The notes under the pieces: generated by a model
The model's database searches: none
What the model was told of the DNA's origin: nothing
What the model saw: the letters and a program-made list of their open reading frames with translations, nothing else
Origin: a virus
DNA length: 25,507 nt
Reading direction: 5' to 3' (one strand)
IMG/VR virus record: IMGVR_UViG_3300020160_000166
Coordinates: 1 to 25,507 of that record
Shown here: positions 9,048 to 24,714 of the stretch, piece by piece
Position numbering within the stretch: position 1 is the first letter of the stretch
How the letters are laid out: every line of letters starts with the position of its first letter
Translations under genes and position numbers: made by a program

Positions 9048-9062
9048 TTTATTATATTACAC
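9048..9062 (-). promoter_or_regulatory. GTGTAA/A+T element before the giant fibre gene
   Basis: Read on the minus strand the bases are GTGTAATATAATAAA, immediately followed by the ATG. The same 15 bases occur at 15992-16006 before another start. The element fills nearly the whole gap after the stop of the upstream gene at 9064, and there is no Shine-Dalgarno sequence. It could be a -10-type late promoter or a translation-start element. Confidence 0.5.
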
Positions 9063-9063
9063 G

Positions 9064-10527
9064 TTAAAAGGTTGGAGATGCGATAATTACATCAAGTAAA
9101 TATCTATCACTTGTTGATATTGGGGCGGAAAACATTATAGTCGCGCTTGTTGTTGTGGGAACTCCGGAAATTATTGTTGCGTATAAGTCTGAATCTATAA
9201 TTTGCGCGGCAGTTCCAGTCGCTCTAATATTCGGATTTATTATAGGAGTTCCACTTACGGCGTTGTAAGTTATTATTTTATAAGAATCCGCCGCACTTAA
9301 AGAATATGATTTAGCATTAAAAGTATATTCAGTAACTGGTTCATATCCACTTATTCTAATCGCTTTAAAATACCCAGTGCCATTTACATTAATATTATAT
9401 CCTTGAACGTCAATAGCTTGAGAAGGTATTGTTGTTCCAATTCCAATTGAACTTCCGCTTTTTAAATAAAATATACCACTACCTGCTGATCCAGAATTAT
9501 AATAAACATTTGAGCCGGAATTATAAACGTTCGTCGAAGTATTTTTATAATACGAAGTTCCTTCTACATCAATATACGCGCCAGTTTTTATTCCTAAATA
9601 AGAATTATCATCAAACAACCCATAAGATCCACTATTGAAATCAACGTGAGAAAATGCGTAAACTCCTTGATAAGCTCCATTTTTAAATAAAAATTCATTT
9701 GATCCCGATAAATATAAATCATTAGAAAACACTCCGCTGCCGCTGAAATTAAATAAACTCGACGAGTTGAGATTTAAAGTTTGATTTACGATGAAATTTT
9801 CAGCTTCACCAGTTCTATTAATTTTTGTATATCCAGAAAGATTAGTGTCTGTTAAAAAATCTTGTTTAGATCCAGAAAAAATAACTGCTCCAGAAGTAAA
9901 ATTAACTCCGCTGTTTAAATTAACATTTCCGCTAAAATTACTTTGTCCAGCAGTATAAACAGTTCCAGTAAAATTTGAAGTTCCTGAAAATTTATTATTT
10001 CCTATAAAATAATTTATCGTCGTACTGCCAGCACTAGTTCCAAATGTATTATCTCCTAATAAATTAACCACGCCGTTAAAAGTAGAAGCGCTATTTCCTA
10101 CGGTTAAAGTATTATTAACAACTACCGCGCTATTAAAAGTAGCAGTATCAGTAAAAGTAGTTGGATCATTAAATACTGCCGACCCATCTGAAGTAAAAAC
10201 CCCAGAAACAGTTAAATTCTTTTCAAAATATCCCGTTTTAAATGTCGAGATTCCTGAAACCAAAGAATCGCCACTAATAATTAAATTTTTATACCCAGTT
10301 ATATTTCCAGAGAATTTCGCGCCTGAATAAAATAAAGCTTCTTGTATAAAAGTGACATCATTAGCAAAGCTAGTATCGCCGCTGAAATTTGCTTGCCCAG
10401 TAACAAATAAATCTTTATATATAGATACAGAATTCGCGCCAGTTACGCCAACACCTAAAAACCCCGTAACGTAACTTCCAATTTGTTCGACTTTTATCTG
10501 CTTAAGACCTATTAAACTCTGCGGCAT
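9064..10527 (-). CDS. Fibre-like structural protein, paralogue of the one at 17852-19003
   Basis: This is a 487-residue protein rich in Ser, Gly, Asn and Phe, with short repeats such as NFSGNVNL, NLNSGVNF, VIFSGS and NKFSGTSNF, as expected of a beta-helical or shaft-type virion protein. The first residues, MPQSLIGLKQIK, are identical to those of the 383-residue protein near the portal. Similarity continues through LGVGVTG, ATFNSAVVV, LGTSAGSTT, YFIGNNKFSG and FNSGAVIFSG-type segments for about 250 residues. The C-terminal half is its own: a GIGTTIPSQAIDVQG unit near residue 355-370 links it to fibres, and the last 100 residues look globular. It has no signal peptide. It lies directly upstream of the giant fibre gene, which suggests a connector or accessory fibre role. 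The family is not recognised by name. Confidence 0.7.
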   Translation of the reverse strand: MPQSLIGLKQIKVEQIGSYVTGFLGVGVTGANSVSIYKDLFVTGQANFSGDTSFANDVTFIQEALFYSGAKFSGNITGYKNLIISGDSLVSGISTFKTGYFEKNLTVSGVFTSDGSAVFNDPTTFTDTATFNSAVVVNNTLTVGNSASTFNGVVNLLGDNTFGTSAGSTTINYFIGNNKFSGTSNFTGTVYTAGQSNFSGNVNLNSGVNFTSGAVIFSGSKQDFLTDTNLSGYTKINRTGEAENFIVNQTLNLNSSSLFNFSGSGVFSNDLYLSGSNEFLFKNGAYQGVYAFSHVDFNSGSYGLFDDNSYLGIKTGAYIDVEGTSYYKNTSTNVYNSGSNVYYNSGSAGSGIFYLKSGSSIGIGTTIPSQAIDVQGYNINVNGTGYFKAIRISGYEPVTEYTFNAKSYSLSAADSYKIITYNAVSGTPIINPNIRATGTAAQIIDSDLYATIISGVPTTTSATIMFSAPISTSDRYLLDVIIASPTF

Positions 10528-10541
10528 AAATTAAATTACAC
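10528..10541 (-). promoter_or_regulatory. GTGTAA element before the 487-residue gene
   Basis: Minus-strand reading is GTGTAATTTAATTT directly before ATG, with GTGTAA 8 bases from the start codon and TATATATA just upstream. No Shine-Dalgarno sequence is present. The element lies just downstream of a terminator, where a new promoter would be expected. Confidence 0.5.
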
Positions 10542-10548
10542 TATATAT

Positions 10549-10586
10549 ATGGAAAAAGGCCATCATTTCTGACGGCCTTTTACTTT
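10549..10586 (-). terminator. Rho-independent terminator after the 115-residue gene
   Basis: AAAAGGCC (10554-10561) pairs with GGCCTTTT (10574-10581). One A-C mismatch is followed by three more pairs, closing a tetraloop that reads GAAA on the minus strand. The minus-strand transcript ends in a U run (GGCCTTTTT). The plus strand also has U-rich sequence after the stem, so the hairpin could work in both directions. Confidence 0.8.
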
Positions 10587-10603
10587 TTGTTTTATTATTT
10601 TTG

Positions 10604-10951
10604 TTATCGACCTTCAGCGAGTATCTTTAAAACTTCTCTTGAAATCTTTGGGTCAGAAGCTTTTGTTTCAACAGGTCTTTTATATCCATTAACATGCTTT
10701 CTAAATTCCGACATCAAAGTCCTCTTTAGAAGCGAAGTATTGTCGATTGGCACCAGTCCAATCTTCGAAGCATGACTCCAAAGATCAGTTTTATTCATTT
10801 CGTTAATCTTATCTGAGTATGCATCCTCATTTAAAGTTCCGTATTTAGTTAAACCTTCATCTCCCCAAACTTGATCTAACGTGGAAGGCACAAACTTTTC
10901 TTCCATACCATGAGATTGAGATAATTCTTCTATCTTTTTCTTCTTAGCCAT
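10604..10951 (-). CDS. Conserved-looking small phage protein of unknown function
   Basis: This 115-residue, charged, soluble protein starts with a lysine cluster (MAKKKKIEEL). The middle part, KTDLWSHASKIGLVPIDNTSLLKRTLMSEFRKHVNG (about residues 54-90), looks like a compact helical unit of the kind seen in small virion or DNA-associated phage proteins, but I cannot name a family. It sits alone between two terminators: the capsid gene's terminator upstream and its own downstream. It therefore probably has its own promoter; TATAAATA (T4-late-like) and TCTATAATA both occur within 40 bases upstream of the ATG. There is no Shine-Dalgarno sequence. Its place directly after the major capsid protein suggests a head or head-tail joining role, which is inference only. 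Confidence 0.65.
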   Translation of the reverse strand: MAKKKKIEELSQSHGMEEKFVPSTLDQVWGDEGLTKYGTLNEDAYSDKINEMNKTDLWSHASKIGLVPIDNTSLLKRTLMSEFRKHVNGYKRPVETKASDPKISREVLKILAEGR

Positions 10952-10980
10952 ACACTTATTATAGAATCTTTATATTTATA
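10952..10980 (-). promoter_or_regulatory. Possible promoter for the 115-residue gene
   Basis: On the minus strand TATAAATA (10980-10973) lies 21 bases before the ATG, followed by TCTATAATA nearer the start. TATAAATA equals the known T4 late promoter core. It lies directly after a strong terminator, so a promoter is needed here. The AT-rich background makes the match weak evidence. Confidence 0.35.
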
Positions 10981-10981
10981 A

Positions 10982-11017
10982 ACAAAAAAAATCGGGAAGG
11001 ATTTCTCCTCCCCGATT
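10982..11017 (-). terminator. Strong rho-independent terminator after the major capsid gene
   Basis: AATCGGG (10990-10996) pairs with CCCGATT (11011-11017). After one mismatch, AGGA pairs with TCCT around a tetraloop that reads GAAA on the minus strand. The minus-strand transcript then runs into eight U residues. It lies 15 bases past the capsid gene stop. Confidence 0.9.
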
Positions 11018-11032
11018 ATGAAAAACTAACTA

Positions 11033-12154
11033 TTAGGCATCAACTAGTGAGATACCAACGATAGCGCGGGCATCCAAGCATATGCGGCCTTCCTCGATGA
11101 ATCCGTAGAAGCCGGTCTTATCAACTCTGTTATTGTTGAATTGATCGTCTGGGATAGCAGTGAATGTGCCGCCGCTCTCAGCTTGACGAGCGACAGGACG
11201 AATGAATGCACCCTTGCTGTTGTCGATACCAATAATAACTTCATCAGCAGAAGCAGAGAAGTCAGCATTTCCAGCGACATTTCCAAGGTTGTTTGAAGCA
11301 GCTAGGAATGTGCCAAACAATGTGTTGTACTTCTTACTAACACCAAGTTCAAGAAGCTCAGTGAGGTTAATCCCGAAGATTGAACCAGCACCAGCGGCGC
11401 GATAGATTTCCTCGCGAACACCTTCAGGCAATTGAGGAGCAGAAGCACCTGTTACCAATGGGGTGAAGGAGAAAGCGCGGATACGTTGCATAACCTCTGG
11501 GGAGAGGTATAGATCAGTTACGCCCTTACTGAATGGAGCGGCAGGAGTACCGCCATCATAGTCTGAATTGATGCGCTTCATGCGGGTCATAAGAGCGTTC
11601 AAGTCAGTTAGTCCGAATGTAGTTGTAGCACTTGTAATAACGTGCTTTAGAGCGGAACTACCTTTTGGAGTAGTAGAAGCGGTAGCGAGAGCCTTCAAAA
11701 GAACGGCCCAAGCATTACGCTCTTGCTTAACTAGAACTTCGTTAGACATACGCTCTACAGCCTTGCTAACTATATCTAGACGTGAACGGCGAGCATAACG
11801 CTTGTTGAAGCTAACAGCGCTATCCAAACGATAAGTTGCGAACTTAACTTCTCCGCCGCCAGTTACTTCTGAGGTTGGAAGACCACCGGCTGTGTTTTGA
11901 GCATAGACAGTGATATAACCAGAATTCTCATTGTAATAGAGATCGAGTGGGTATGAAGGACTATCATCTTCATCATACTCAGCATCGGTATAAACAGTGC
12001 TGGCAGTACCAGCCTTGTATAGAAGTTGTTGAACGACAGGTCCGAGGAAAGCCGCGAAAGCTTCTTGAGCCTCTCTAGCAACAATAGAGTTACGAGAACC
12101 CATAGCCTTGATTAACTCAACTTGCTCGGGTGTATTTTTTAGTTTAATTTTCAT
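11033..12154 (-). CDS. Major capsid protein (HK97-fold, T4 gp23-like)
   Basis: This 373-residue protein is probably the main shell subunit. The evidence is its place after portal, protease-scaffold and capsid-associated genes, its own strong terminator, and sequence features of phage capsid proteins. These are an acidic-hydrophobic N-terminal helical segment, a central SFNKRYARRSRLDIVSKAVERMSNEVLVKQERNAWAVL-type spine region (about residues 115-155), an LYLSPEVMQRIRAF segment, and a C-terminal GFYGFIEEGRICLDARAIVGISLVDA strand pair typical of T4-like and related myovirus capsids. The ribosome-binding site AAGGA lies 11 bases before ATG. Codons are visibly GC-richer than in neighbours, consistent with very high expression. 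The N-terminal part may be removed by the prohead protease; no cleavage site can be fixed by eye. Confidence 0.8.
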   Translation of the reverse strand: MKIKLKNTPEQVELIKAMGSRNSIVAREAQEAFAAFLGPVVQQLLYKAGTASTVYTDAEYDEDDSPSYPLDLYYNENSGYITVYAQNTAGGLPTSEVTGGGEVKFATYRLDSAVSFNKRYARRSRLDIVSKAVERMSNEVLVKQERNAWAVLLKALATASTTPKGSSALKHVITSATTTFGLTDLNALMTRMKRINSDYDGGTPAAPFSKGVTDLYLSPEVMQRIRAFSFTPLVTGASAPQLPEGVREEIYRAAGAGSIFGINLTELLELGVSKKYNTLFGTFLAASNNLGNVAGNADFSASADEVIIGIDNSKGAFIRPVARQAESGGTFTAIPDDQFNNNRVDKTGFYGFIEEGRICLDARAIVGISLVDA

Positions 12155-12190
12155 ATATTGAATTCCTTAAATTAATTTTTAACTTATTAA

Positions 12191-12763
12191 TTAAGCGACA
12201 GATGTTTCAAGGAATGAGGTGAAGTTTAGGAGAGCTAGAGTGCAGCCATTTGCATCAGCAGCACCCAAACAGATGCCGACTTGCTTGGCTCCACTTACGG
12301 TTCCGATTGAAAGATTACCAGCACCAGAGGTGTGAATCTTTGAACCAGCGGCAGGAGTTCCATTGATTCCGCTCAAAAGGAACATTCCCTTTGTGGCGAT
12401 AGGAACAGTTTGTCCAGGAATTACAGCGCCAATTTCAGCAGCTTTACGAGGATTAAACTTGAGAGCTTCGCCATTTTCGTCAAGATTCTTAATGTCTTGA
12501 AGAAGAATTCCAATTGGGACATCAGTTTGTCCACAAAGAGTAACAGTGGCAGGAACGTTAAATCTTGGGGAAGTGACGTTACCGAAAGAAGCTCCGATTT
12601 CAGAATCTAGAGTCAACTCATCGGTTGCCTTCCAGCCTGATTCGATCTTAACTACAATGCCTTTAGAGGCAATAGTAGCAGTGGTTAGGTCTGCGGTGCT
12701 ATATCCAAATAGCCCGAGAACATCGGATTCGTTTACTTGTCTAAATGGTCTTAGTGTAGCCAT
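12191..12763 (-). CDS. Capsid-associated / decoration-type protein
   Basis: This 190-residue protein starts MATLRPFRQVNESDVLGLFGYS and is mostly beta-structured. Its features are GIVVKIESGW, PATVTLCGQTDVPIGILLQDI, IGAVIPGQTVPIATKGMFLLSGI, and a Gly/Ala-rich end. Such short beta-rich proteins directly upstream of the major capsid gene are usually head decoration or stabilisation proteins. It has a good ribosome-binding site (AAGGA, 7 bases before ATG) and, like the capsid gene, GC-richer codons, so it is probably made in large amounts. It is separated from the capsid gene by 36 bases without a terminator, so they are cotranscribed. A tail or neck protein is the alternative. Confidence 0.6.
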   Translation of the reverse strand: MATLRPFRQVNESDVLGLFGYSTADLTTATIASKGIVVKIESGWKATDELTLDSEIGASFGNVTSPRFNVPATVTLCGQTDVPIGILLQDIKNLDENGEALKFNPRKAAEIGAVIPGQTVPIATKGMFLLSGINGTPAAGSKIHTSGAGNLSIGTVSGAKQVGICLGAADANGCTLALLNFTSFLETSVA

Positions 12764-12794
12764 ATTTTTTCCTTATATATATTTTGTTTGTTTG

Positions 12795-14279
12795 TTATAG
12801 TTGGATATCAAATCCTTCTACGCTAAAAGCCTTCTTGTATTTATCAACAAGACTCTCAGAAGCTTGACTAGAGTTGGGAATAGCGTTGTCAGTAACGACA
12901 GCGTTATCGATGGCATTTTCAACTGCATCCTTAACTTCGGAAGCATTTGCGGAAGCCATTACTTTACCCTTTTCCGTTACCTCTTGCACTACTGGAGCGG
13001 GCTTTTTGCCCTTTAGTAGCACATTCATTTTCTTCTTGTAGCCAGCGAAAGCGTCTTCGCTCATTTCGGAGATGTCTCCAGCGATAATTTCGCGCTCTTC
13101 AGAAGAAAGCTCAAACTCACCATCAAAACCAGTCATTCTTTGATTAAAGAGTTCTTGCTTTGCTTTAGCTTCATTTTCCTTTTGGATTTCAGCTAAAACT
13201 TGATTTACTTTTTCATATTCAGCCTTCAACGCCTCAAGATCCTTGGACAGTAATTCGGCCTTTTCGATAGAAGCTTTAACAGCCTCTTGTGATTGGTTCT
13301 TCTCTACTTCAAATTGATCTGAGGCTTTTTTAATTTCCTCAGTAATGAAATCAGAGATAACTGACGCGGAAACCTGTTTTAGGTTTTCGTCAGTAATATC
13401 AGAAATGCTATTAATCTTCATAACTTTATTATTATTATCTACAGTATTTTTATTATTTTGTGAAATATCTTTTTGTTCTGTCGCCTCAGAAGCTCCGACT
13501 TTTACGTCTTGTTCAGACTTAATAGTTAGAATTCCTTTGACATCAGCGGCAGGAGTTTCGGTTATCCCGACTCCAAGAGGAACAACTTTATCAATAATTT
13601 TGCGGTATATTTTTTTACCGCCATCTGTCATTCCACTACCGCCGAAAGCTTTTAAATAACCTTTATATTTTTCGACTTGATCTGGATCAGAAATAACTTC
13701 CGCAGAAGCTATATTCTTTTCATTATTATCAAGTAATATAAGGTTATAATTAGAAAATCCTAATTCCCAAGAAGTAGAAATAGATAGATAATCTTCACTT
13801 GAAGGATCTGAAGAATTTTCTACTAATTTAGTAATTCTGGGATTAACGACTTTCCACAACACGCCGCCAAGAGTAATATTAAATGGGCCGTCCATTTTAG
13901 AAACTTCTTCTTCAGTTAATGGGCGATCTGTGCCAAATTCGCTAAAACCAGCTTTTAAAATCGTGCCAATAACTTTTTCTCTGTTATGTTCGATATTAAT
14001 TGGTTTATTTATAAAGTTTTTATAAATGTCAACGGCTGTTGCAGTGTCAATAACGTCATTGTTTCTATTAACTCTGTTAGCAACACACGCGTTAAATGCG
14101 ATTGGTAAAAGATCAATATTTGTTGCTGAATCTACATCAGGAACAAACGCGCCGATCTTTTCTAAACTTGCAATAGCTAAATTAAAATCAAATTCTTCTG
14201 AATGAAGAGTTTTAATCTCGGAGCTAAAAATTGATTGAAATGGAAAGTCATTCATATTATTTTGTAATTTAATTACCAT
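12795..14279 (-). CDS. Prohead protease fused to scaffold protein
   Basis: This 494-residue protein appears to join two functions. Residues 1 to about 235 look like a T4 gp21/S78-type prohead protease: VANRVNRNNDVIDTATAVDIYKNFINKPINIEHNR (candidate catalytic His98) and EDYLSISTSWELG (candidate nucleophile among Ser166, 168 and 170). An Asn-rich linker (about 270-286) leads to an acidic, Lys/Glu-rich, coiled-coil part (about 290-494) like phage scaffold or core proteins, ending EGFDIQL. Met287 in VMKINSISD could be an internal start giving a separate scaffold chain. The start overlaps the stop of the preceding gene (ATGGTAA); Met9 is a possible alternative start. The next genes are capsid proteins, as expected for a protease/scaffold pair. 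Confidence 0.75.
   Translation of the reverse strand: MVIKLQNNMNDFPFQSIFSSEIKTLHSEEFDFNLAIASLEKIGAFVPDVDSATNIDLLPIAFNACVANRVNRNNDVIDTATAVDIYKNFINKPINIEHNREKVIGTILKAGFSEFGTDRPLTEEEVSKMDGPFNITLGGVLWKVVNPRITKLVENSSDPSSEDYLSISTSWELGFSNYNLILLDNNEKNIASAEVISDPDQVEKYKGYLKAFGGSGMTDGGKKIYRKIIDKVVPLGVGITETPAADVKGILTIKSEQDVKVGASEATEQKDISQNNKNTVDNNNKVMKINSISDITDENLKQVSASVISDFITEEIKKASDQFEVEKNQSQEAVKASIEKAELLSKDLEALKAEYEKVNQVLAEIQKENEAKAKQELFNQRMTGFDGEFELSSEEREIIAGDISEMSEDAFAGYKKKMNVLLKGKKPAPVVQEVTEKGKVMASANASEVKDAVENAIDNAVVTDNAIPNSSQASESLVDKYKKAFSVEGFDIQL
13419..13445 (-). promoter_or_regulatory. Possible internal translation start for a scaffold protein
   Basis: On the minus strand the sequence before the in-frame ATG at 13421 is TGTAGATAATAATAATAAAG, close to the A/T element found before other starts. 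The downstream codons begin the acidic coiled-coil scaffold part. There is no Shine-Dalgarno sequence. Confidence 0.3.
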
Positions 14280-15325
14280 TGAACTTGATCGTATCTTTTT
14301 TGATACTCTTTTTGGTCTTCTGAAAATCCGTTACCTCCACCATGTTCTTTTTCTTCTGGATTAATTTGCTCAGTAATTTTTTTAAGCTTTTTAAGAACTT
14401 CTGGGGAAAGAGTAGAAGGATTAAATTTTTTAGGATCATATTTTCTCAATTGATCTTTTGTTTTAGTTAATACGTCGCCTACTTTATAAGTAGCGCCATT
14501 ATTAGTAACTTTATATTTTACTACTTTACCCATTTTATTAGGCAAGTCTTCTACTGATTGAACGATTCCTTCGCTTCCGTAATGATCACAAGAAGGATTA
14601 ACATTCTTAACCATTGCGCCGTTTTCATAATCGTCTTCCTCATCTTGCATTTTACCATTATCATTAGCATTGGAATATTCATCTTCTTTATTGAACATGA
14701 CATAATTGTGAATTGTTGTGACGTAGTCTTCTGTAATAGCAATTTTGCCTTGTAGCCATGATTCTGTTAAATTTTCTTTAACATTAGAATCTTCTATATT
14801 ATTTAATATCGCGGTTACATGAGCTTGTATAGATCTTAAAGATCCAATTGACATTCCAAGAAAATCACCTTTATATTCGTCTAGCTCTTCTGAATCATCT
14901 TCTACTTCTTGAGCTTTAGATAAATCAGGCCAAATTTTAAGCAATTCATCTTTATCCCAAAAAGTTTCGCCATCCCAATTTTCTTGATAATTATCTAAAG
15001 AACCTTTTGTATATTGAGTAACAGACTTTCCAGATTCCCACATTTTGCATGACCAATAATTAGCTTTCCATTTTGGTCCCGGTTTAGAATCACATTGATG
15101 ACGAGCGCGATAACTCTTTCGACGAACAGGATCATCACGTTTAATTTCCATGTTAGGGTCGCCAAAGTTAACTTTGACTACATTCCCCTTTTCATTCTTT
15201 ACATATACAGAAAATTTCTTAGGGCCGTTTGCTGTTCTAAAAGGCTTGTTTAAAGTCTTTTTCTCGTTAGCGGCTAAAGATATTTGATTAGAAAAATCTA
15301 ATTCTATTTGGTTATTATAGTTCAT
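14273..15325 (-). CDS. Conserved phage structural protein with FGDPNMEI / YWSCKMW motif
   Basis: This is a 350-residue protein with two recognisable conserved blocks. Residues about 38-96 contain VKVNFGDPNMEIKRDDP, RRKSYRARHQCDSKPGPKWKANYWSCKMW, with two Cys (78 and 93). This motif is widespread in phage head proteins. Residues about 156-211 contain GMSIGSLRSIQAHVTAIL...ENLTESWLQGKIAITEDYVTTIHNYVMF, another motif seen in phage virion proteins. The rest is acidic, with a Lys-rich tail from about 285. It overlaps the DUF5824-like gene upstream by 11 bases and the protease-scaffold gene downstream by 7 bases, so translational coupling is likely. Its location points to a prohead core or head-maturation role. 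The biochemical function is not known to me. Confidence 0.65.
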   Translation of the reverse strand: MNYNNQIELDFSNQISLAANEKKTLNKPFRTANGPKKFSVYVKNEKGNVVKVNFGDPNMEIKRDDPVRRKSYRARHQCDSKPGPKWKANYWSCKMWESGKSVTQYTKGSLDNYQENWDGETFWDKDELLKIWPDLSKAQEVEDDSEELDEYKGDFLGMSIGSLRSIQAHVTAILNNIEDSNVKENLTESWLQGKIAITEDYVTTIHNYVMFNKEDEYSNANDNGKMQDEEDDYENGAMVKNVNPSCDHYGSEGIVQSVEDLPNKMGKVVKYKVTNNGATYKVGDVLTKTKDQLRKYDPKKFNPSTLSPEVLKKLKKITEQINPEEKEHGGGNGFSEDQKEYQKRYDQVQW

Positions 15326-15986
15326 ACCAGAATTTGCTTGAGTTATCTTCTTCGTCTAAATAAAGTTCTTCTACATCTTCAAAATTATAATTCAAATCAT
15401 ATTCTTTTATATCAATTTCAGCTTGAGCAAAATCTATATCTTCTAATTCCCAAGAATCTGATATATCAATAGAAGCTGAACTGCGAGCAACATCAGAATC
15501 CGCTTTTCTATAAGAATCTTTAACTGACTTTCCAGCCATCATTCTTAAAAACATATTGACACGCGCCGCAGCCCAACCGCCTCTTGTCATTCCCGGCCTG
15601 TGAGAAGAACTAAATGCTCCTGCTCCCCTGCGATAAACTTTTTTTAATTGAGTTAAATTAACTTTTCTAGAATGCTTAGAGTTATGATCTTTTACTTTGT
15701 TTTTAAGCATCTCTATAACTTTAGTTGAAAAAGTTATTGCATCACCGCTTGTCCCAGCAGATCCAGGTTTATTTTTAGAAGATCCGCTTTTCTTTTCAGA
15801 AGGTTTAGATGGAGTTTGCGCCGCGCTTTTTGGCCCAGATCTTTTAGCTTCTATTTCAATGTCTAGTTTTTCCAATTTCGGCAACACGAAATTTTCTCCA
15901 GAAACAATAATATCTTCAGCAGGAAGTTTTATTTCCGGCTTTTTATATTCTATTTCAATGGAATCGTTAAATGCTTCTGAGTTCAT
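15315..15986 (-). CDS. DUF5824-like conserved phage protein
   Basis: This is a 223-residue protein. Residues about 107-150 hold a strongly conserved block, LTQLKKVYRRGAGAFSSSHRPG...GGWAAARVNMFLRMM, which I recognise as the DUF5824-type domain (VyRRGxGA...WAxARVxxFL) of phage structural operons. The N-terminal third is charged and low complexity (Ser/Lys/Pro/Gly-rich, 50-80). The C-terminal 70 residues are very acidic. The domain is of unknown function; the gene's position between portal and protease suggests a head component packaged or used during assembly. The start is preceded by an exact copy of GTGTAATATAATAAA and no Shine-Dalgarno sequence. The family name is from memory and is the least certain part. 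Confidence 0.65.
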   Translation of the reverse strand: MNSEAFNDSIEIEYKKPEIKLPAEDIIVSGENFVLPKLEKLDIEIEAKRSGPKSAAQTPSKPSEKKSGSSKNKPGSAGTSGDAITFSTKVIEMLKNKVKDHNSKHSRKVNLTQLKKVYRRGAGAFSSSHRPGMTRGGWAAARVNMFLRMMAGKSVKDSYRKADSDVARSSASIDISDSWELEDIDFAQAEIDIKEYDLNYNFEDVEELYLDEEDNSSKFWYEL

Positions 15987-15991
15987 TTATT

Positions 15992-16006
15992 TTTATTATA
16001 TTACAC
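15992..16006 (-). promoter_or_regulatory. GTGTAATATAATAAA element before the DUF5824-like gene
   Basis: This is an exact 15-base copy of the element at 9048-9062. GTGTAA lies 14 bases before the ATG. The 31-base gap between the portal stop (16018) and this start contains only this element and A/T sequence. Confidence 0.5.
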
Positions 16007-16017
16007 TAATTTATTAA

Positions 16018-17871
16018 TTATAATTTACTATTTAATAAAATTGAAGCCATAAATGGATCAAGGCCATGCTTAACGGCGATATCATTTATTTCACTTATTC
16101 TGCCTGAGTTAGAATCTACTGGATTATTGCAATATTTTTCAACGCTTTCATCCCAAGATGCTACTGATTCATTTGCTATAATAATTTTAGAAATTTCTTC
16201 GGCAATTTGTTTTTGATTGTCAGTTAATTTTTTCTTGTTATGCTTTTTCTTCAAAAATCCTTCTACTGAACCTTGAAGTTGTTGGAATTTAAGAATATTT
16301 TCTTTAATCTTTATAAAGCTATAAGCGTCTTCTTCAGCTTTAACTTGTTGTTTAATCTTTGTCGTTCCTGCTGGCCTTCCTGCTTCTGGGGCAGATTTAG
16401 CTCCGCCAATAATTGGGGCATAAAGCCCTTCATCTCTTAAAGTTTTAGTTGCTCTTTGAGATTCAAGAGAAGCTTCTAAATCTGGAAGAACACCAGTTTC
16501 AATTGCCTTGAGGGTCTCTTCTGGAGTAAGAACACCAAGCTCCAAAAGTCTTGTATAAACACGATTTTGAGTTGTGTTATCTTTTAAATTAACTTCTTCA
16601 AAATAAGGAATTGGATATCCTCTAAATCCAAGAGCTTTAGATATTCTTTTTATCTCAGGAATCAAAAAGTCATTTAAGAAAGCTTGGCGACCTTGATTTA
16701 ATCGCGCCAAAAATACATCAATCTTAGCTTCTTGATTAGAGAACTTCTCACCTCCGACAAGAATATTATTAAGACCAAGGTTAATGTCGTTGTTAACTGT
16801 TTCATATTTTTTAGGATCTAGCAAATCAGCAATTTTAGGAACTACGAATTCAGCTTTTGTAGTATAATCAGCAATAAGAACACGACCAACAGATTCATTT
16901 TCAAATAGCTTTTGCATCGACTCTAAATTCTTCTGATTGATGCCGCCCTTTTCAGGTTCAGAACCCATTGTAACCAATAAAATAGCTTGTTGCATTGTAC
17001 GAGCAATAGCCATATCCATCTTCTTTAACTCAGCTTTAAAGTTAATATCTTCAAGAACTGGATATCCCATAGGCACAGCAAAAGGCTCGTAATCTTGCTT
17101 CTTATAAAATACAGACTTGAATCTTTCTGGATTAAGAGCAATTCTTAAAGAACCGATCTTAGAGGTCTTGATAAGATGTTGAGTTTCGGCGTTAAAACTA
17201 TCGAAAATTTGTTGATCTTCTTCTGTAGTTATAACTCTTAATCTACTCAATTCATATTCGCTAAGAACTTTATAATATTGACCCGTAAGATAAGAAGTGC
17301 CGCTAGAAAATTGAATATCTACAGGATTTATAATAACATAACGAACCGGAATTTTAACATTAGAAGCATTTAACGGACCTCTTCCTAATAATTGCACCAA
17401 TCTATTTGTATCTTCTTCTAGAAGAACACCTTCGAAACGGTAAATAAACACGTTTCCTGAACGATAATATTCTCTAAAAAATCTATCTTGAAAACTCCAA
17501 AGATTAATTTTATTAAACAACGCTTGAAAGAAATCTCGCGCTTTTTTTGTTCCTCCTTGGAAATATAAATTGCTAACAGAAAATTCCGTCATCAAATCAA
17601 TGACGTTTCTAAATTGAGCAAAATTATAATAAGCTTTTTGGCATAATATAGTAGCATCTTTAATATCAATTGTACTTCTATCAGCAAAATTGGTACGAGT
17701 ATATTTAAATGGCATCAAACCATCATCAATATTTTTAAATTTGTCGGTTCTTTCTATAGATCCAGACTTATTTCTTCTCGTACTTGTGTTAGAAGAAGCT
17801 GTTGAAACCATCAAAGGCTCTATTTCTTGAGATTTAAGTTTTGATTTCATTTTATCTGATAGCGAGAACAT
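16018..17871 (-). CDS. Portal protein (T4 gp20-like)
   Basis: This 617-residue protein is the probable dodecameric portal at the unique head vertex, through which DNA enters and leaves. Features of phage portals include an N-terminal ...NVIDLMTEFSVSNLYFQGG region, FFREYYRSGNVFIYR (about 130-145), IPVRYVIINPVDIQF, the mid-region KKMDMAIARTMQQAILLVTMGSEPEKGG, LLDPKKYETVNNDINLGLNNILVGGEKFSNQEAKID, and a C-terminal helical, Lys-rich part. Length fits T4-type portals. It follows the terminase, with one fibre-like gene between. The start at 17871 overlaps that gene by 20 bases in another frame; Met8 (17850) is an alternative start. The element GTGTAACATATA lies just before the first ATG. Confidence 0.85.
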   Translation of the reverse strand: MFSLSDKMKSKLKSQEIEPLMVSTASSNTSTRRNKSGSIERTDKFKNIDDGLMPFKYTRTNFADRSTIDIKDATILCQKAYYNFAQFRNVIDLMTEFSVSNLYFQGGTKKARDFFQALFNKINLWSFQDRFFREYYRSGNVFIYRFEGVLLEEDTNRLVQLLGRGPLNASNVKIPVRYVIINPVDIQFSSGTSYLTGQYYKVLSEYELSRLRVITTEEDQQIFDSFNAETQHLIKTSKIGSLRIALNPERFKSVFYKKQDYEPFAVPMGYPVLEDINFKAELKKMDMAIARTMQQAILLVTMGSEPEKGGINQKNLESMQKLFENESVGRVLIADYTTKAEFVVPKIADLLDPKKYETVNNDINLGLNNILVGGEKFSNQEAKIDVFLARLNQGRQAFLNDFLIPEIKRISKALGFRGYPIPYFEEVNLKDNTTQNRVYTRLLELGVLTPEETLKAIETGVLPDLEASLESQRATKTLRDEGLYAPIIGGAKSAPEAGRPAGTTKIKQQVKAEEDAYSFIKIKENILKFQQLQGSVEGFLKKKHNKKKLTDNQKQIAEEISKIIIANESVASWDESVEKYCNNPVDSNSGRISEINDIAVKHGLDPFMASILLNSKL

Positions 17872-19003
17872 TATATGTTACACTATTTATAGTTAACTGT
17901 TGAACGTACAATTGCCCACTTGGAACAGAACCTGTACCGGGAATAGACCCAAAATCTTGAGTATAGAATCCTGTTTCAATATTAAATTTCGCGCCGCTCT
18001 TAACGGTAAAATTAGAATCTTTATATAAAGTTTCTTTTGACCCGCTTTTAATTTCTAAGAATGAGCCGCTGTTTAAATTTATATAAGATTCATTATAATC
18101 TGAAACGCCGCTTAATTGAATTATGTCAGAATCTGATAATTGAAGCGAATTTGCTCTAAGCACCAAATCATTTCCAGCTCCAGATATAAAAACATCATTA
18201 TAAAAAAATGATTGGCCGCTATTAGTTAGTACGGCGCTGCTTGAAAGCCCTAAAGAAGAAGTTATTATAACTGATGATCCAGTTGTATTTCCTAATAAAG
18301 AAACATCTCCTGAAAAAGTAGTTTTCGTAGCAAAAGCTTGACCAGTTCCGCTAAAAATAATATTTCCGCTGTTAAACGACACTCCGCTATTGAAATTTGT
18401 TACGCCTGAAAAGTAATTTGTTCCTCCATGATAATTAGTTCCAGAAAAATTAGCATTTCCAGAGAAAATATTATTTCCAATTAAATATGTGCTTGTGGTT
18501 CCACCTGCGCTTGTTCCAAGACGCACATCGCCTAAAGATTGAAAATTTCCGCTAAAAACCGTATTAACAACTCCAACGCTTAAAGTGTCTGTTACGACTA
18601 TTGGATCATTAAAAGTGGCTGTAGAATTAAATGTTGCCGCCGCGTCAAACCTAGAAACACCAGAAAAGCCAGCAGCACCAGATATAGTTAATATATCTTC
18701 TAAAATAACTGGATTATCGAAAGAAACGTCGTTATCAAACCTAGCAACTCCGCTAATGTTTAAAGTTCCCAGCCCTGTGATATTTCCAGAAACTAACAAC
18801 CCAGAAGCAATTTGGAAATCTTCTCTAGCATAAGAAGTATCTTTTAAATCAGCCGCTCCGCTCACTGTAAGAGAGTTATTAAATACAGAAGGCTTGGAAG
18901 TATATACTGTTGAGCCAGTGCTTGATACACCTAAAGCTCCAGTTATATAATTTCCAATCTCGCCAGATTTTATCTGTTTTAAACCTATAAGACTTTGCGG
19001 CAT
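17852..19003 (-). CDS. Fibre-like structural protein, paralogue of the one at 9064-10527, inside the packaging module
   Basis: This is a 383-residue, Ser/Gly/Asn-rich protein made of short strands such as LTVSGAADL, RFDNDVSF, NANFSGTNY, TNFNSGVSFNSGNIIFSG. The start MPQSLIGLKQIK is identical to the 487-residue protein, and alignment by eye continues through LGTSAGGTT, YLIGNNIFSG and NSGNIIFSG. The C-terminal 100 residues (LVLRANSLQLSDSDIIQLSG..., ending YNVLAIR) differ. It lies between the large terminase and the portal, a place where a fibre gene is unexpected, and overlaps the portal start by 20 bases. Its shaft-like repeats suggest a head or neck fibre, whisker or other surface fibre. The family is not recognised by name. 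Confidence 0.7.
   Translation of the reverse strand: MPQSLIGLKQIKSGEIGNYITGALGVSSTGSTVYTSKPSVFNNSLTVSGAADLKDTSYAREDFQIASGLLVSGNITGLGTLNISGVARFDNDVSFDNPVILEDILTISGAAGFSGVSRFDAAATFNSTATFNDPIVVTDTLSVGVVNTVFSGNFQSLGDVRLGTSAGGTTSTYLIGNNIFSGNANFSGTNYHGGTNYFSGVTNFNSGVSFNSGNIIFSGTGQAFATKTTFSGDVSLLGNTTGSSVIITSSLGLSSSAVLTNSGQSFFYNDVFISGAGNDLVLRANSLQLSDSDIIQLSGVSDYNESYINLNSGSFLEIKSGSKETLYKDSNFTVKSGAKFNIETGFYTQDFGSIPGTGSVPSGQLYVQQLTINSVTYNVLAIR
17872..17883 (-). promoter_or_regulatory. GTGTAA element before the portal gene
   Basis: Minus-strand reading is GTGTAACATATA then ATG; GTGTAA is 6 bases from the start. TATAAATA lies directly upstream of it. All of this lies within the end of the preceding coding region. 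Confidence 0.4.
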
Positions 19004-19018
19004 TTTTATTAATTACAC
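19004..19018 (-). promoter_or_regulatory. GTGTAA element before the 383-residue fibre-like gene
   Basis: Minus-strand reading is GTGTAATTAATAAAA then ATG, with GTGTAA 9 bases from the start, placed in the 19-base gap after the terminase stop. Confidence 0.45.
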
Positions 19019-19022
19019 CTTT

Positions 19023-20849
19023 TTAGATCATTATTGGCGAAAAAGTAGAGACTTCTTTAATTTTTGATGAAGCTTCAAGTTCAAAATAAAATTTTGTAGC
19101 CCAATTTGCTAACATTAAAGTTGTATAATTATCTTTTCTAGCTCTATTAGGAGACATGTCTCTTTTCAAATGTTGAGGTAAGTCAAAAGATTGAGACCCT
19201 TTAGCTGAAGATCGTACTTCTATTAATGAACATTGCTTTTTCGTCTGATATATGATATTATCTTGGAATTCAATGAAATCTAAAATAGATTCATGACCAA
19301 CGTTATCCAAGTTAACATAACAAGAACTTTGTATATCGAAAGCTTCGTTGTTAGCGGAAGTTCTAGACGCAAACCAAACTTTTTTATGATCGATGCAAGC
19401 TTGTAGATAATTATTGGCTTTACGAATAAAATCTGTAGTGAAATTTTGTTTAAAACAAATAGACCCTTTCTCTACGTTATACTCTCTTGCCGCTTTGCGC
19501 GTCATGTTTATATATTCATTTCCTTCAAGACAAGTGTCAGACTCAAAGAAGCCTAAATTTATATTGGATTTTTTAAACAACTCACTTTCTTTTGCGCTAT
19601 CAATAAATTGATATCCCGCATTATCAATGCAAATCATAACTATATTAAAACTCGTCATTAAATAATGCAAATAGCTGATATGAGATTTTAAATTACCACC
19701 AGCAACAGCATATCCATGAACTAACGTTCCTTGTTTGCGCTCTTCATCTAGCTCAAAAACAGACATAGCGAAAAAGTCAGAGCTAGGACTATTAGAAAAG
19801 CTCGGATCGATTCCTAATATATATTTAACATTAGATTTTCCTTTAATCAAAGTATAAGGAACTTCTCCATCAGGAATTGTGCATTCATGCATCTTCTTCG
19901 CGCTAAAATAACCATCACTACCATCTGTAAATTGAGCGCAATATTCTCGTAAAAACGAACTGTGAGAAGTGCCGCCGTTTTGAGCTTCCTCAATAACGGT
20001 ATTGTCGATCATGTGCTTGGGCAAAGCTTCGTAACCCATTTGAGCTATAAAATATCTAGCTTCGCCATCTTCATTAGAGTAAATTTTATCGTTCCACTCT
20101 TTATAAGTTTTATATAAATTTTCGAACGTAAAAGAAGCCGAAGAAAGAGCTATCATTTTAGACGTGTTTGGAAACACCATTCTTTCTTTTTCTGTTAAAT
20201 GACCTTCTTTAATTAGGTTATCTTCAATTTCTCTAATTTCCATACGCTCTTTCATGTTTTGAGGAGCGACAAGGAATGGCATCAATACATTTTTAATGAT
20301 ATCTTCTGGAAGAAGCAGATATTCATCTAGTAAAAGGATATTGGCGCGAAAGCCACGAATCTTTTCTCCATTAAGAGGAATAGCTGTAATGGACCCTCCA
20401 TTAATTTGCCATTCATATTGATCGTTTCGTTTAGCTTTCACGCCAAAAGCTTGTTGAAGAAGTTCGCCGCCTTTTGAATCGACGATCTTCTCTAAATAAT
20501 TAAAAATAAAACGCGCAGTTCTAAATGTTGGACCTGCGATTAATATTTTAGTGTTAGGTTCAAATACACATTGAAGAAAACAAAAAACGCTACCTAAAAA
20601 GCTTTTACCACAACCACGGCCAAGAACATTCAGGCAAAAATTACGATTCATCATACCTTTGAGAATCATTTCTTGATAAGGAGCGAGTTTTATTCCTGAA
20701 AGCAATTCAGTTGTAAAACCAATATTGTTTCTTAGAAACTTAGCTAGAGTAATACGAGCTTCTTTATCATCAAGCTCTCCTTTGATAAGCTTATACTCTT
20801 CATTTAAATCAGGAAATGTTCCTTTATACTTATCAGGGCAGTAAATCAT
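19023..20849 (-). CDS. Terminase large subunit (DNA-packaging ATPase/nuclease)
   Basis: This 608-residue motor protein translocates DNA into the prohead and cuts concatemers. The ATPase part shows Walker A GRGCGKS (residues 77-83), Walker B ILLLDE (171-176) and a coupling motif ALSSASF (234-240). The C-terminal RNase H-type nuclease shows the expected acidic residues: YILGIDPSF (Asp348), ICIDNAG (Asp409) and ARKDNYTTLMLANWA (Asp573). The length matches T4 gp17-like terminases. The start overlaps the stop of the zinc-finger nuclease gene by four bases (ATGA), with GAG upstream. Identification is secure from motif order and position next to portal genes. Confidence 0.95.
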   Translation of the reverse strand: MIYCPDKYKGTFPDLNEEYKLIKGELDDKEARITLAKFLRNNIGFTTELLSGIKLAPYQEMILKGMMNRNFCLNVLGRGCGKSFLGSVFCFLQCVFEPNTKILIAGPTFRTARFIFNYLEKIVDSKGGELLQQAFGVKAKRNDQYEWQINGGSITAIPLNGEKIRGFRANILLLDEYLLLPEDIIKNVLMPFLVAPQNMKERMEIREIEDNLIKEGHLTEKERMVFPNTSKMIALSSASFTFENLYKTYKEWNDKIYSNEDGEARYFIAQMGYEALPKHMIDNTVIEEAQNGGTSHSSFLREYCAQFTDGSDGYFSAKKMHECTIPDGEVPYTLIKGKSNVKYILGIDPSFSNSPSSDFFAMSVFELDEERKQGTLVHGYAVAGGNLKSHISYLHYLMTSFNIVMICIDNAGYQFIDSAKESELFKKSNINLGFFESDTCLEGNEYINMTRKAAREYNVEKGSICFKQNFTTDFIRKANNYLQACIDHKKVWFASRTSANNEAFDIQSSCYVNLDNVGHESILDFIEFQDNIIYQTKKQCSLIEVRSSAKGSQSFDLPQHLKRDMSPNRARKDNYTTLMLANWATKFYFELEASSKIKEVSTFSPIMI

Positions 20850-21775
20850 AACTTCTCTATATCATATAATAGCTGAAGATCGTAATTTAATGATATATCT
20901 TTATTAACAAAGATCTTTTCTATTACTCTTACGCATTCCTCTCTACCGTCTACAAACAAAAACTGCACGTTCTTATATGTAGTCATTAACATCCGGACTT
21001 TATGAAATATAAAATCAGGATTGACTTTTGTGTTTCTAGCGATATACGGAAGATAATTGAATCTTAAACACGTCGCCAAATCATTCTCAACCACCACAAT
21101 GATGGAGCTATTGTTCTCGGCGGCTCTTTCTATCTCTCGGCAAAATCTATCGTATCCTCCAGCCAAAGTTCCAATAAAGTCTTTAAGCGACTTTCTTTCG
21201 ATAAAAGTATTTCCAGATACGTCTAGATTTTCAAAACAATAATCTCCAAAGTTCAATTTCTTTACTTGAGTTAATCTGGAAAACTCTAAAGGCTTTTGTT
21301 CTCTTGTGTCTACATAAATACAATAGTCGTCTACAAAGTTATCGATTAAAAGTAAATTTTTTGGATTTAAAAACTTCTTTTCGAAGCCGTTATTATCGCA
21401 ATAATCATAATAATCTCCAATAACAGTTTCTAGAAAGTTAATACTAGGAATTCCAGAAGACTTTAACTCTACTTGAGAGAATGGATATATAGATTTTTTC
21501 TTTTCTTGACGTTTTTGCAACAACCCTTTGCAATAATCTCCTACTATTTTAGGATCTGAAGACTTTGCCCACTTTTTAAAGTTTATTTTAGAGTTGAAAT
21601 CAGATTCAAAATATTGATCTTTGTTTTTAAACTCAATAATCTCACCAGTTAACAAATCCTTTCGAGGATAATGATGTTGATAATAATCTGATACTGAAAT
21701 TTTATGAGATTTTAAATGAGCGTGTAGACTTTTGTCATTATCAAAATCTTTATTACAGAATTTACAATTAGCCAT
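20846..21775 (-). CDS. C2H2 zinc finger - ERCC4-type nuclease
   Basis: This is a 309-residue two-part protein. Residues 4-24 form a textbook C2H2 finger: CKFC, then F at +4, L at +10, and H20/H24. Residues about 150-240 form an ERCC4/XPF-type nuclease core: YVDTREQKPLEF (Asp156, Glu159), LNFGDYC (Asp178), and FIERKSLKDFIGTL (Glu193, Arg194, Lys195, Asp199). It continues with RFCREIERAAENNSSIIVVVE. ERCC4 enzymes cut branched or flapped DNA; the finger may bind DNA. It has a strong ribosome-binding site (AGGAGAT, 7 bases before ATG) and overlaps both neighbours. Its place between the putative small and the large terminase suggests a job in resolving branched concatemers for packaging, which is inference. 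Confidence 0.82.
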   Translation of the reverse strand: MANCKFCNKDFDNDKSLHAHLKSHKISVSDYYQHHYPRKDLLTGEIIEFKNKDQYFESDFNSKINFKKWAKSSDPKIVGDYCKGLLQKRQEKKKSIYPFSQVELKSSGIPSINFLETVIGDYYDYCDNNGFEKKFLNPKNLLLIDNFVDDYCIYVDTREQKPLEFSRLTQVKKLNFGDYCFENLDVSGNTFIERKSLKDFIGTLAGGYDRFCREIERAAENNSSIIVVVENDLATCLRFNYLPYIARNTKVNPDFIFHKVRMLMTTYKNVQFLFVDGREECVRVIEKIFVNKDISLNYDLQLLYDIEKL

Positions 21776-22847
21776 TTAATATCTCCTGTTTAGAAATACC
21801 TAATATACGACATTTCAACTCGTCCATACCTTCTAGCTTGTCAATTTCTTCTCCTAATGTAGCTTTGCGTATTTCAGCGAGCTTAATCATCTTTACTCTA
21901 GATTCTTCTTCTTTCCAAGCTTGAATAAGATTAACAATACTAGCGTTTTGCTTAATTTGACTACCTAATCTATCAGAGCGCTTTGTTTTAAGATCGTTAA
22001 CAAGTTTTTGTTGACGACCGACGCATTGATTATACTCTTGTTGCGCTGTGTTGATAGATTCAACAAGACCCATCGAAATTCTAGCGTCATTGTCTGCGGC
22101 TCCTTCTAACAATCTTTGCAACTTTTCTACTCTTCGTTGAATGCTAGAAGCGATAACTACTTCTGACGCCAATATAATATATTGATCTACTTCTTCTTCT
22201 GTGAGATCATTTTTGTCGTATGTATAACGAACGAAAGAACTTTCAAAAAGATCTCTATCTACATTACCATCATAAGAATTAATTTGATGCACGAATCTAT
22301 AAGTATTAATATACTTTAATAGACATTCTAAATCTCTTTTATGTCTAGAGTTTAGAGTTTCGCGCTTTAAATTTAAATCATATACATATCTGTTAACTTT
22401 ATTTATCGCTTTATCTAAAGAACGTGGAGATACATAATCTTCTTGAGCTATTTCTTCTTGTTCTTTATAAATTCCTTCTGGAAGTACGTTTTCAGATATA
22501 AATTTGGCAACAATTCTAGTTTCGTTGTTTAAATTCGACAATGTAGGGTTATCAAATATGATTCGTGTTATTTCTAACGCCTTCATTGTTTTGGCGTTAT
22601 TCAAAATAAACTGTCTATTTTCGTCTGAAAGATCGGGCGCTTTCTTAGACTTGTATTCGTGAGTACCTCTAGCTTTTAAACTTCTTTTTGCTAGAAACGC
22701 TTGAACATATTTACCTTCTTTACAACGACCATCTAAATCAGGAAAACTCGGATATGCTATTCTAATCAATTCTATCAAAGAAGGCGGATCTTCTGGGCGA
22801 TTGTTCCATTCGTTGACGATAAGGTTCTGCTGATCTTCTGTTAACAT
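21768..22847 (-). CDS. Putative terminase small subunit / packaging-associated protein
   Basis: This is a 359-residue, mostly helical, charged protein. The N-terminal part (LTEDQQNLIVNEWNNRPEDPPSLIELIRIAYPSFPDLDGRCKEGKYVQAFLA, about residues 2-55) reads like a helix-turn-helix region that could bind DNA. A second helical region (about 75-125) follows, then a long coiled-coil-like section (about 235-345, with many Lys/Glu/Arg). Proteins of this type two genes before the large terminase are commonly annotated as small terminase or related packaging proteins. The start lies one base past the stop of the sigma-like gene. No enzyme motif is seen. The assignment depends on position and general character; another DNA-binding role is possible. 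Confidence 0.5.
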   Translation of the reverse strand: MLTEDQQNLIVNEWNNRPEDPPSLIELIRIAYPSFPDLDGRCKEGKYVQAFLAKRSLKARGTHEYKSKKAPDLSDENRQFILNNAKTMKALEITRIIFDNPTLSNLNNETRIVAKFISENVLPEGIYKEQEEIAQEDYVSPRSLDKAINKVNRYVYDLNLKRETLNSRHKRDLECLLKYINTYRFVHQINSYDGNVDRDLFESSFVRYTYDKNDLTEEEVDQYIILASEVVIASSIQRRVEKLQRLLEGAADNDARISMGLVESINTAQQEYNQCVGRQQKLVNDLKTKRSDRLGSQIKQNASIVNLIQAWKEEESRVKMIKLAEIRKATLGEEIDKLEGMDELKCRILGISKQEILNG

Positions 22848-22848
22848 A

Positions 22849-23538
22849 TTAATAAACGTCTATTCCGCCGTTATGGATATTTATCTTTATCTTTTTGATA
22901 ATAGATTTTTGCATATTCTTTATTTGCTTATATCCAGGATTTCTATTTTCCTCTGTACTCTTGTAACCCATCTTTTTAGCCGCTTGTTTTTCCGTCATTT
23001 TCTTGATATACAGCATTTCATACAACTTCCATTCTAAAGGTTTTAAAAAACCCTTCATCTTCTCGTCTAAATCCAACTTAAACTTGTCTATATCGATAGA
23101 GTCGCGATAACTTGTGTCTAAACAATTTTCCAAAGACTCGAAAGGAACGGGCATATTTAAATTATACGCTTGCTTTTTATTTCTCTCCCATTCTTTAAAC
23201 AATGGACAATCCGAACATTGTTTTCCGAACTTCTTGCACCCTTCATCTGGTTCAGACTCTGGACATTGGGCGCACGGCTTAATAAAATTCAGATAATTAT
23301 TGCGAATTAAGTTTTTTATCTGATTTGATATTATTCTATTTACCCAAGGAGCCAAAGGCTGTTTAGGATTATAAAGATGCCACTTTTTATAAATATGGAT
23401 TCTAATGATTTGCGATACGTCATCAAAATCTATCCAAGTTAAACTAGATAGATTCCATTTATTCCTTCTTTTGCTTATTTCGTTATCGATAATACTTATC
23501 GATTCTTCGAAAGAAGGCGATGACTGTTTCTTTTTCAT
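22849..23538 (-). CDS. Sigma factor-like protein, candidate late-transcription factor (T4 gp55-like)
   Basis: This is a 229-residue protein with the layout of a minimal sigma factor. Residues about 36-80 (IDFDDVSQIIRIHIYKKW...APWVNRIISNQIKNLIRN) match sigma region 2, which binds RNA polymerase and the -10 element. Residues about 163-215 (FLKPLEWKLYEMLYIKKMTEKQAAKKMGYKS) match a region 4 helix-turn-helix. Between them is a Cys-rich insert with C89, C92, C101, C108 and C111 that may bind zinc. The start overlaps the preceding stop (TAATG), indicating coupling to the zinc-ribbon gene. In T4-like phages such a factor directs late structural genes. Here it lies just upstream of them, and the GTGTAA/A+T elements are its possible targets. 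Confidence 0.65.
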   Translation of the reverse strand: MKKKQSSPSFEESISIIDNEISKRRNKWNLSSLTWIDFDDVSQIIRIHIYKKWHLYNPKQPLAPWVNRIISNQIKNLIRNNYLNFIKPCAQCPESEPDEGCKKFGKQCSDCPLFKEWERNKKQAYNLNMPVPFESLENCLDTSYRDSIDIDKFKLDLDEKMKGFLKPLEWKLYEMLYIKKMTEKQAAKKMGYKSTEENRNPGYKQIKNMQKSIIKKIKINIHNGGIDVY

Positions 23539-23933
23539 TATTTGTTTTTAATCGAACCTGCTTCTCTTCTAAAGTCATCCATTGAATATCCGCCGCCTTC
23601 ATTATTCCTTTGGAAAGTTTCGCCACCTGTTGAAGATCCAATGACATTTTCTATTTTTACCTTTGAGTCGTAATCTTTTTCAATTTCTACATCTAACTTA
23701 GAAGCACTAAATGCCAAATCTGTGTTTATCGGCGACCCATCTTCATCTTCGTCATAATCATCTTCTTCTGCTGAAGTGCGATATTGTGATCGTGTGGGTT
23801 TCGGCGATTGTTTACTTTGCACAGGTGAAGACGCCACAGATTTTGTTCCGAAAGAATTTCCACAGTTAAAGCAGAAATTCGGTTTGTTGTTAGATTCGTG
23901 CGGCGACCCACATTTTTGGCAGTATATCTTCAT
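23538..23933 (-). CDS. Small zinc-ribbon protein with disordered acidic tail
   Basis: This is a 131-residue protein. The N-terminus is a compact zinc ribbon (C5-x2-C8, C21-x2-C24; MKIYCQKCGS...FCFNCGNSFG). The rest is low complexity and probably disordered: a Ser/Lys/Pro-rich stretch, the acidic run EEDDYDEDEDG, and a Gly-rich end. It is coupled to the sigma-like gene (TAATG overlap), so a role in transcription or nucleic-acid binding is plausible but not shown. It begins 17 bases after the PhoH stop, and the gap reads ATGTAATATAATAATAT on the minus strand. Confidence 0.7.
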   Translation of the reverse strand: MKIYCQKCGSPHESNNKPNFCFNCGNSFGTKSVASSPVQSKQSPKPTRSQYRTSAEEDDYDEDEDGSPINTDLAFSASKLDVEIEKDYDSKVKIENVIGSSTGGETFQRNNEGGGYSMDDFRREAGSIKNK

Positions 23934-23950
23934 ATATTATTATATTACAT
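23934..23950 (-). promoter_or_regulatory. TGTAATATAATA element before the zinc-ribbon gene
   Basis: Minus-strand reading is ATGTAATATAATAATAT then ATG. It shares TGTAATATAATA with the elements at 9048 and 15992 but has A instead of G at the first position. It occupies the whole intergenic gap. Confidence 0.45.
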
Positions 23951-24670: not shown

Positions 24671-24714
24671 CTTGAGTAGATGTTGTATTATAATAAATAA
24701 ATGGAACAATCCAA
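24671..24714 (-). promoter_or_regulatory. Divergent promoter region between phoH and the HNH gene
   Basis: The 30-base gap contains the perfect palindrome TATTATAATA (24686-24695), giving a TATAAT on both strands. For the minus strand TTGGAT (24714-24709) stands 16 bases from TATAAT (24692-24687), a plausible sigma70-type promoter for phoH. For the plus strand the stretch TGTATTATAATAAATAA before the HNH start resembles the GTGTAATATAATAAA element; no convincing -35 is seen there. Confidence 0.45.

Follow-up and report, generated by a model that had tools for sequence, protein, structure and literature searches.

A GTGTAA(T) element as a candidate promoter core for mRNAs with little or no leader in a large family of uncultured phages

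The late promoters of phage T4 have a short, -10-only core, TATAAATA, that depends on the phage sigma factor gp55, and their transcripts carry leaders bearing Shine-Dalgarno (SD) sequences. Leaderless bacterial genes have a -10 box just ahead of the start codon (PMC3160421; for mycobacteria, PMC3898074 and PMC4633059). Late promoters of the AR9/phiKZ type are phage-specific, have a short core and are used by phage multisubunit polymerases; in AR9, transcription starts at a T-purine step and the leaders measure 26-491 nt (PMC5312081). In Flavobacterium (Bacteroidetes), non-SD, Kozak-like initiation is a translation signal tied to the ATG (PMC6847099). Open-access papers yielded nothing about a GTGTAA phage promoter or leaderless phage late genes in the phage family described here.

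The element of this family, GTGTAA(T), resembles the T4 late promoters in its short, -10-only core without a clear -35, in the internal promoters it appears to form ahead of structural genes within compact gene runs, and in the presence of a sigma-family protein in the phage genome. It differs in its core sequence, GTGTAAT, in a sigma protein without detectable homology to gp55 and in predicted leaders near zero; the T4 core TATAAATA, in the position where this family has its own core, shows no enrichment near starts. As in leaderless bacterial genes, the box lies a few bases before the ATG of genes without an SD sequence, and transcription is predicted to start at the start codon; those genes use host sigma factors and TA-type boxes, whereas the phage studied here has GTGTAAT and itself encodes a sigma-like protein. 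Having a short, apparently phage-specific core is a trait in common with AR9 and phiKZ, but the leaders, unlike those of AR9, are predicted to be near zero. The A/T-rich, SD-less starts also recall Kozak-like initiation in Bacteroidetes; here, however, the element has a predicted start site of its own, also stands before a tmRNA, and occurs in phages whose other genes use SD sequences.

The window, meaning the whole stretch of DNA analyzed, is a complete IMG/VR record of 25,507 bases and represents a phage fragment. It encodes a T4-type terminase large subunit (19023-20849), an ERCC4 nuclease, PhoH, and endonuclease VII. In a collection of 50,697 phage records, the only matches were distant terminases (<30% identity), and the sigma, capsid, and portal proteins had none. 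In IMG/VR, the terminase matched at least 300 relatives, of which the 80 kept range from 100 to 67% identity, and the sigma protein matched at least 570; two long relatives are referred to as G1 (136,548 bp) and G2 (158,301 bp). The phage family is large and uncultured, with freshwater and marine habitats. Its sole genome match was a 77-kb contig (NZWA01000041.1) binned in a Flavobacteriales MAG; this link is weak and may result from mis-binning, and the use of SD sequences in the family speaks against a typical Bacteroidetes host. Gene calls were simple and ATG-only.

The first-pass annotation had reported minus-strand GTGTAA ahead of the genes starting at 9047, 10527, 15986, 17871, and 19003, and locating the strings confirmed all five, along with the identity of the two copies of the 15-base GTGTAATATAATAAA (9048-9062 and 15992-16006) and the position of TGTAATATAATA ahead of 23933. 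The genes at 9047, 10527, 15986, and 19003 indeed lack SD sequences, which are present at 21775 (nuclease) and at 12763 and 12154 (capsid region). The candidate promoter cores and neighboring terminators are the following:

9056..9062, minus strand: putative GTGTAAT promoter core of the 1596-aa gene at 9047; GTGTAA-ATG distance 9, predicted leader 0-1 nt
10535..10541, minus strand: putative GTGTAAT promoter core of the tail-fibre-like gene at 10527; distance 8, T-A step
16000..16006, minus strand: putative GTGTAAT promoter core of the 223-aa gene at 15986; distance 14, predicted leader ~6 nt
19012..19018, minus strand: GTGTAAT core in the gap between the terminase gene and the 383-aa fibre-like gene (19003); distance 9, predicted leader 0-1 nt
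10553..10582, minus strand: intrinsic terminator (TAAAAGGCC...GGCCTTTTT), just upstream of the 10527 promoter
10990..11017, minus strand: intrinsic terminator, 3' of the capsid-region gene 11033-12154

The core at 9056..9062 is intergenic, the stop of the preceding gene lying at 9064, and that at 16000..16006 is conserved among relatives. The putative promoter of 10527, for which a wholly leaderless mRNA is predicted, occupies the ~25 nt remaining from the terminator at 10553-10582 to the ATG; such good single cases apart, proximity of terminators to promoters was not significantly enriched. The tail-fibre-like proteins encoded at 9064-10527 and 17852-19003 have the N-terminus MPQSLIGLKQIK in common and are otherwise different, which suggests a shared attachment piece.

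The remaining site, ahead of 17871, was rejected as a promoter:

17878..17883, minus strand: GTGTAA within the C-terminal codons of gene 17852-19003, not a promoter

Its context, GGT GTA ACA TAT AAT GTT CTC GCT ATC AGA TAA, translates as G V T Y N V L A I R stop. Relatives retain these codons, but the supposed ATG is absent or altered, though not in every relative, which marks the site as a coding coincidence. In several relatives, the portal protein reads from ATGAAATC past the stop of the upstream gene, and the portal start is probably the next in-frame ATG, at ~17850, just past that stop. Further GTGTAA sites may be coding coincidences of the same kind.

The total number of GTGTAA copies in the window shows no excess over shuffled sequence (12 vs 10.3), which, like the coding site at 17871, would suit an effect of chance or of A/T-rich composition. 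The placement of the copies argues otherwise. Five stand within 25 nt of a start among the 19 starts of the window, vs 0.09 expected (p ~4e-8), a number reached by 1 in 2,000 dinucleotide shuffles of the upstream stretches. The interval from -20 to -11 contains 113 copies of GTGTAA in 82 loci (~1.8 expected), and in an independent set of loci, retrieved through the sigma gene and then cleared of similar sequences, GTGTAA far outranks every other hexamer (80 vs 2.6); it also ranks among the top hexamers in both G1 and G2. Furthermore, GTGTAA lies no more than 60 nt past the terminase stop in 75 of 77 relatives (~0.016 expected in each), and is kept there although relatives differ in the spacer, in how far off the next ATG lies and even in which gene comes next. 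Given this retention and the 30-60-fold excess at a fixed place in two independent sets, which bears out the claim that the element is commoner before starts than expected, the probability of a chance or composition effect is negligible.

A free expectation-maximization (EM) motif search was dominated by A-rich sequence at the start codon and recovered GTGTAAT from several different seeds. The extended motif originally described has a narrower conserved part, GTGTAA(T); the TATAATA tail characterizes the freshwater clade. In the first 50 kb of each of two control T4-like phages, P-SSM2 and HTVC008M, the GTGTAA placement was absent and the ATAAATA placement present. In the pelagiphage HTVC008M (1-50000), this T4-type late core lies at -15 to -11 of six starts, vs 0.04 expected, so that short leaders may occur there too. 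Four relatives (L055, L058, L063, and L072) carry two GTGTAA copies facing apart with 16 nt between them (TTACAC-N16-GTGTAA); this arrangement sits between genes for proteins of 264-268 aa and 175-182 aa, like closely spaced divergent promoters.

We consider it highly probable that GTGTAA(T) is the -10-type core of a phage-specific promoter from which transcription starts ~8 nt further on, yielding mRNAs with little or no leader. In G1 and G2, respectively, GTGTAA occurs at 0.95 and 1.41 copies per kb on the sense strand of tandem gaps and at 1.47 and 1.13 per kb in divergent gaps; its frequency in the coding sense is 0.11-0.13 per kb, and the 8.8 kb of convergent gaps contain none, with both strands counted. 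The distance from GTGTAA to the ATG ranges from 8 to >40 nt; the distribution breaks off sharply below 8 nt, which is also the commonest value. At sites at least 13 nt from the ATG, a pyrimidine-purine step falls 8 nt past GTGTAA in 27 of 48 cases and, in a second set, in 15 of 31 (together 42/79, p ~1.5e-9 against an assumed background of 22%). The base preceding the ATG is a pyrimidine in 31 of the 34 distance-8 genes, vs 50% in other genes; genes at distance 9 or 10 do not show the step in its usual position, which makes their start selection uncertain. SD sequences accompany 12 of 135 near sites (≤16 nt) vs 24 of 47 far sites (17-40 nt; p ~5e-9). The 190 non-redundant sites comprise 34 at distance 8, where the mRNA is predicted to begin at the start codon with no SD sequence, 69 with a predicted leader of 1-4 nt, and 55 at ≥17 nt. 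No clear TTGACA-like -35 was found at these sites, which show weak A/T and T/C preference only. The identified genes that follow the element include those for tape measure, minor tail, tail-fibre assembly, portal, and PhoH proteins, among others.

Several relatives encode a one-piece tmRNA (Rfam RF00023, 128-145 bits), matched at the following positions:

L092:3676-4080, minus strand: tmRNA
L038:5297-5709: tmRNA
L043:996-1407: tmRNA
L049:212-634: tmRNA
L051:6073-6495: tmRNA
L155:1301-1725: tmRNA
L158:1668-2092: tmRNA
L159:620-1044: tmRNA

The tmRNA of G2 begins exactly 8 nt past GTGTAA, at a C-G step, and because a tmRNA has no start codon to serve, GTGTAA there points to a promoter and not to a translation signal. 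A second tmRNA type (L155, L158, and L159) has TTGTAAT upstream, and its C-A step, likewise at 8 nt, precedes the RNA by two bases; the L038 and L043 lineages have no GTGTAA directly upstream. According to ARAGORN, the tag encoded by the tmRNAs of G2, L038, and L043 is unusually long (31 aa) and ends in VAA. G1 gave two other RNA matches:

L085:4911-5168, minus strand: group I intron (RF00028)
L087:5249-5427, minus strand: manA RNA (RF01745)

These observations bear on the other proposal of the first-pass annotation, a translation enhancer in the mRNA that replaces the SD sequence, for instance by pairing with or binding the ribosome. Such an enhancer would explain why GTGTAA is found near starts that mostly lack SD sequences, but not why its distance to the ATG varies from 8 to >40 nt with SD sequences returning at long distance, why the start step keeps a fixed offset from GTGTAA whatever the position of the ATG, or why the same phages use SD sequences for other genes; nor is the element confined to coding genes, one copy standing 8 nt ahead of a tmRNA. 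We regard this explanation as very improbable, the variation in ATG distance and the tmRNA site effectively excluding it as the main one. The promoter reading, with leaderless or very-short-leader mRNAs, is by contrast strongly supported by the start step, the variable ATG distance, the distance-dependent SD sequences, the lack of copies in convergent gaps, and the copy ahead of the tmRNA.

A second class of sites consists of TATAAT boxes without GTGTAA, which cluster 5-8 nt ahead of the ATG with a modal spacing of 6 nt:

10958..10963, minus strand: TATAAT box of the 115-aa gene at 10951, 6 nt before the ATG and just past a terminator
24689..24694, plus strand: TATAAT box of the endonuclease VII gene at 24701, 6 nt before the ATG
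23938..23949, minus strand: TGTAATATAATA, ahead of the sigma operon, holding TGTAAT and TATAAT (5 nt before the ATG)

This class probably covers the genes at 24701 and 10951 and perhaps also the sigma operon (23933), whose assignment is ambiguous: in relatives, the gene at 23933 is preceded by TATAAT in many cases, by ATGTAAT in others, and rarely by GTGTAA. Of the shared element first proposed, the GTGTAA placement is real, the 17871 copy is coding, and the site at 24701, with perhaps that at 23933, probably belongs to the TATAAT class instead. In a region of G2 with mostly small genes (122595-137510), several genes are preceded by a TTGAC-like -35, 16-17 nt, TATAAT, and 6-8 nt to the ATG, a pattern that predicts sigma-70-type promoters and leaderless mRNAs there too; the TATAAT class as a whole also looks leaderless.

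The proximity of TATAAT to the ATG raises the question of whether GTGTAAT is no more than a variant -10 box of host sigma-70 that the unmodified host polymerase would read: TGTAAT is one base off TATAAT, and the freshwater clade often has GTGTAATATAATA. This appears unlikely, given that the first G is conserved, as is the G that replaces the critical A at the second position, that TATAAT is far less enriched than GTGTAA in the independent set, and that GTGTAA is kept in 75/77 terminase flanks. In addition, GTGTAA lacks a clear TTGACA-like -35, whereas the TATAAT class is spaced differently (modal 6 nt) and has a TTGAC-like -35 in several G2 genes.

A phage-specific promoter would call for a recognizer, for which the window offers a candidate:

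22849..23538, minus strand: sigma-70-region-2 protein of 229 aa with a cysteine-rich insert, candidate recognizer of GTGTAAT
23538..23933, minus strand: zinc-ribbon-like gene, head of the sigma operon

Sigma region 2 (PF04542) was detected in 25 of the 25 members scanned (E ≤ 0.01), the protein of the window scoring 26.3 bits vs a cut-off of 24, and the cysteines of the insert are invariant. The gene order phoH, zinc-ribbon gene, sigma, 359-aa gene, ERCC4 nuclease, terminase is conserved. The best PDB matches to a structure model of medium quality (pTM 0.37) were all bacterial sigma factors, with E 0.003 at best and none ≤0.001. Homology to T4 gp55 was rejected (hhalign probability 0.3%, with a shallow profile, Neff 2.2). 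The earlier suggestion that this protein uses the promoter is plausible, considering region 2 in all members scanned and the strict synteny; from conservation and fold, we infer that it is likely to be the recognizer of GTGTAAT.

In the mechanism we propose, GTGTAA(T) would be recognized in an A/T-rich setting by RNA polymerase, most likely the host enzyme together with the phage sigma-like protein, and transcription would start at the pyrimidine-purine step 8 nt past GTGTAA, that is, 7 nt past the hexamer TGTAAT. With the ATG at 8 nt, the mRNA would begin on the start codon and be leaderless; with the ATG at 9-12 nt, the leader would measure 1-4 nt, making SD initiation impossible. Messages with little or no leader would need no SD site, and where the start lies ~17 nt or more away, an ordinary SD sequence would often be there. 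The GTGTAA class would drive structural (late) genes, among others, "late" use being a fair inference from gene functions. The small-gene cluster and, in many relatives, the sigma operon would use the TATAAT class, near enough to the ATG for leaderless transcripts. Host polymerase would make the sigma-like protein, which would then open the GTGTAAT promoters, and TATAAT ahead of the sigma operon in many relatives suits such a host-polymerase-first cascade.

There are precedents both for phage sigma factors that serve late promoters of their own and for leaderless genes preceded by a -10 box; new are the core sequence, the sigma-like protein, and the combination of both in one widespread phage family. 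We give about even chances to the full proposition that GTGTAAT and the cysteine-insert sigma-70-region-2 protein form a new sigma/promoter pair in phages whose structural and, via TATAAT, probably early genes are routinely leaderless or nearly so. With its predicted start nucleotide, the element offers a promoter signature that can be read in a phage family common in fresh water and the sea, and the sequence by itself may allow operons, gene starts (e.g., that of portal), and regulons to be corrected. Should the 5' ends be confirmed, this would be an uncommon instance of phages with leaderless mRNA as a normal mode of late-gene expression, and their sigma-like protein would represent a new phage sigma specificity.
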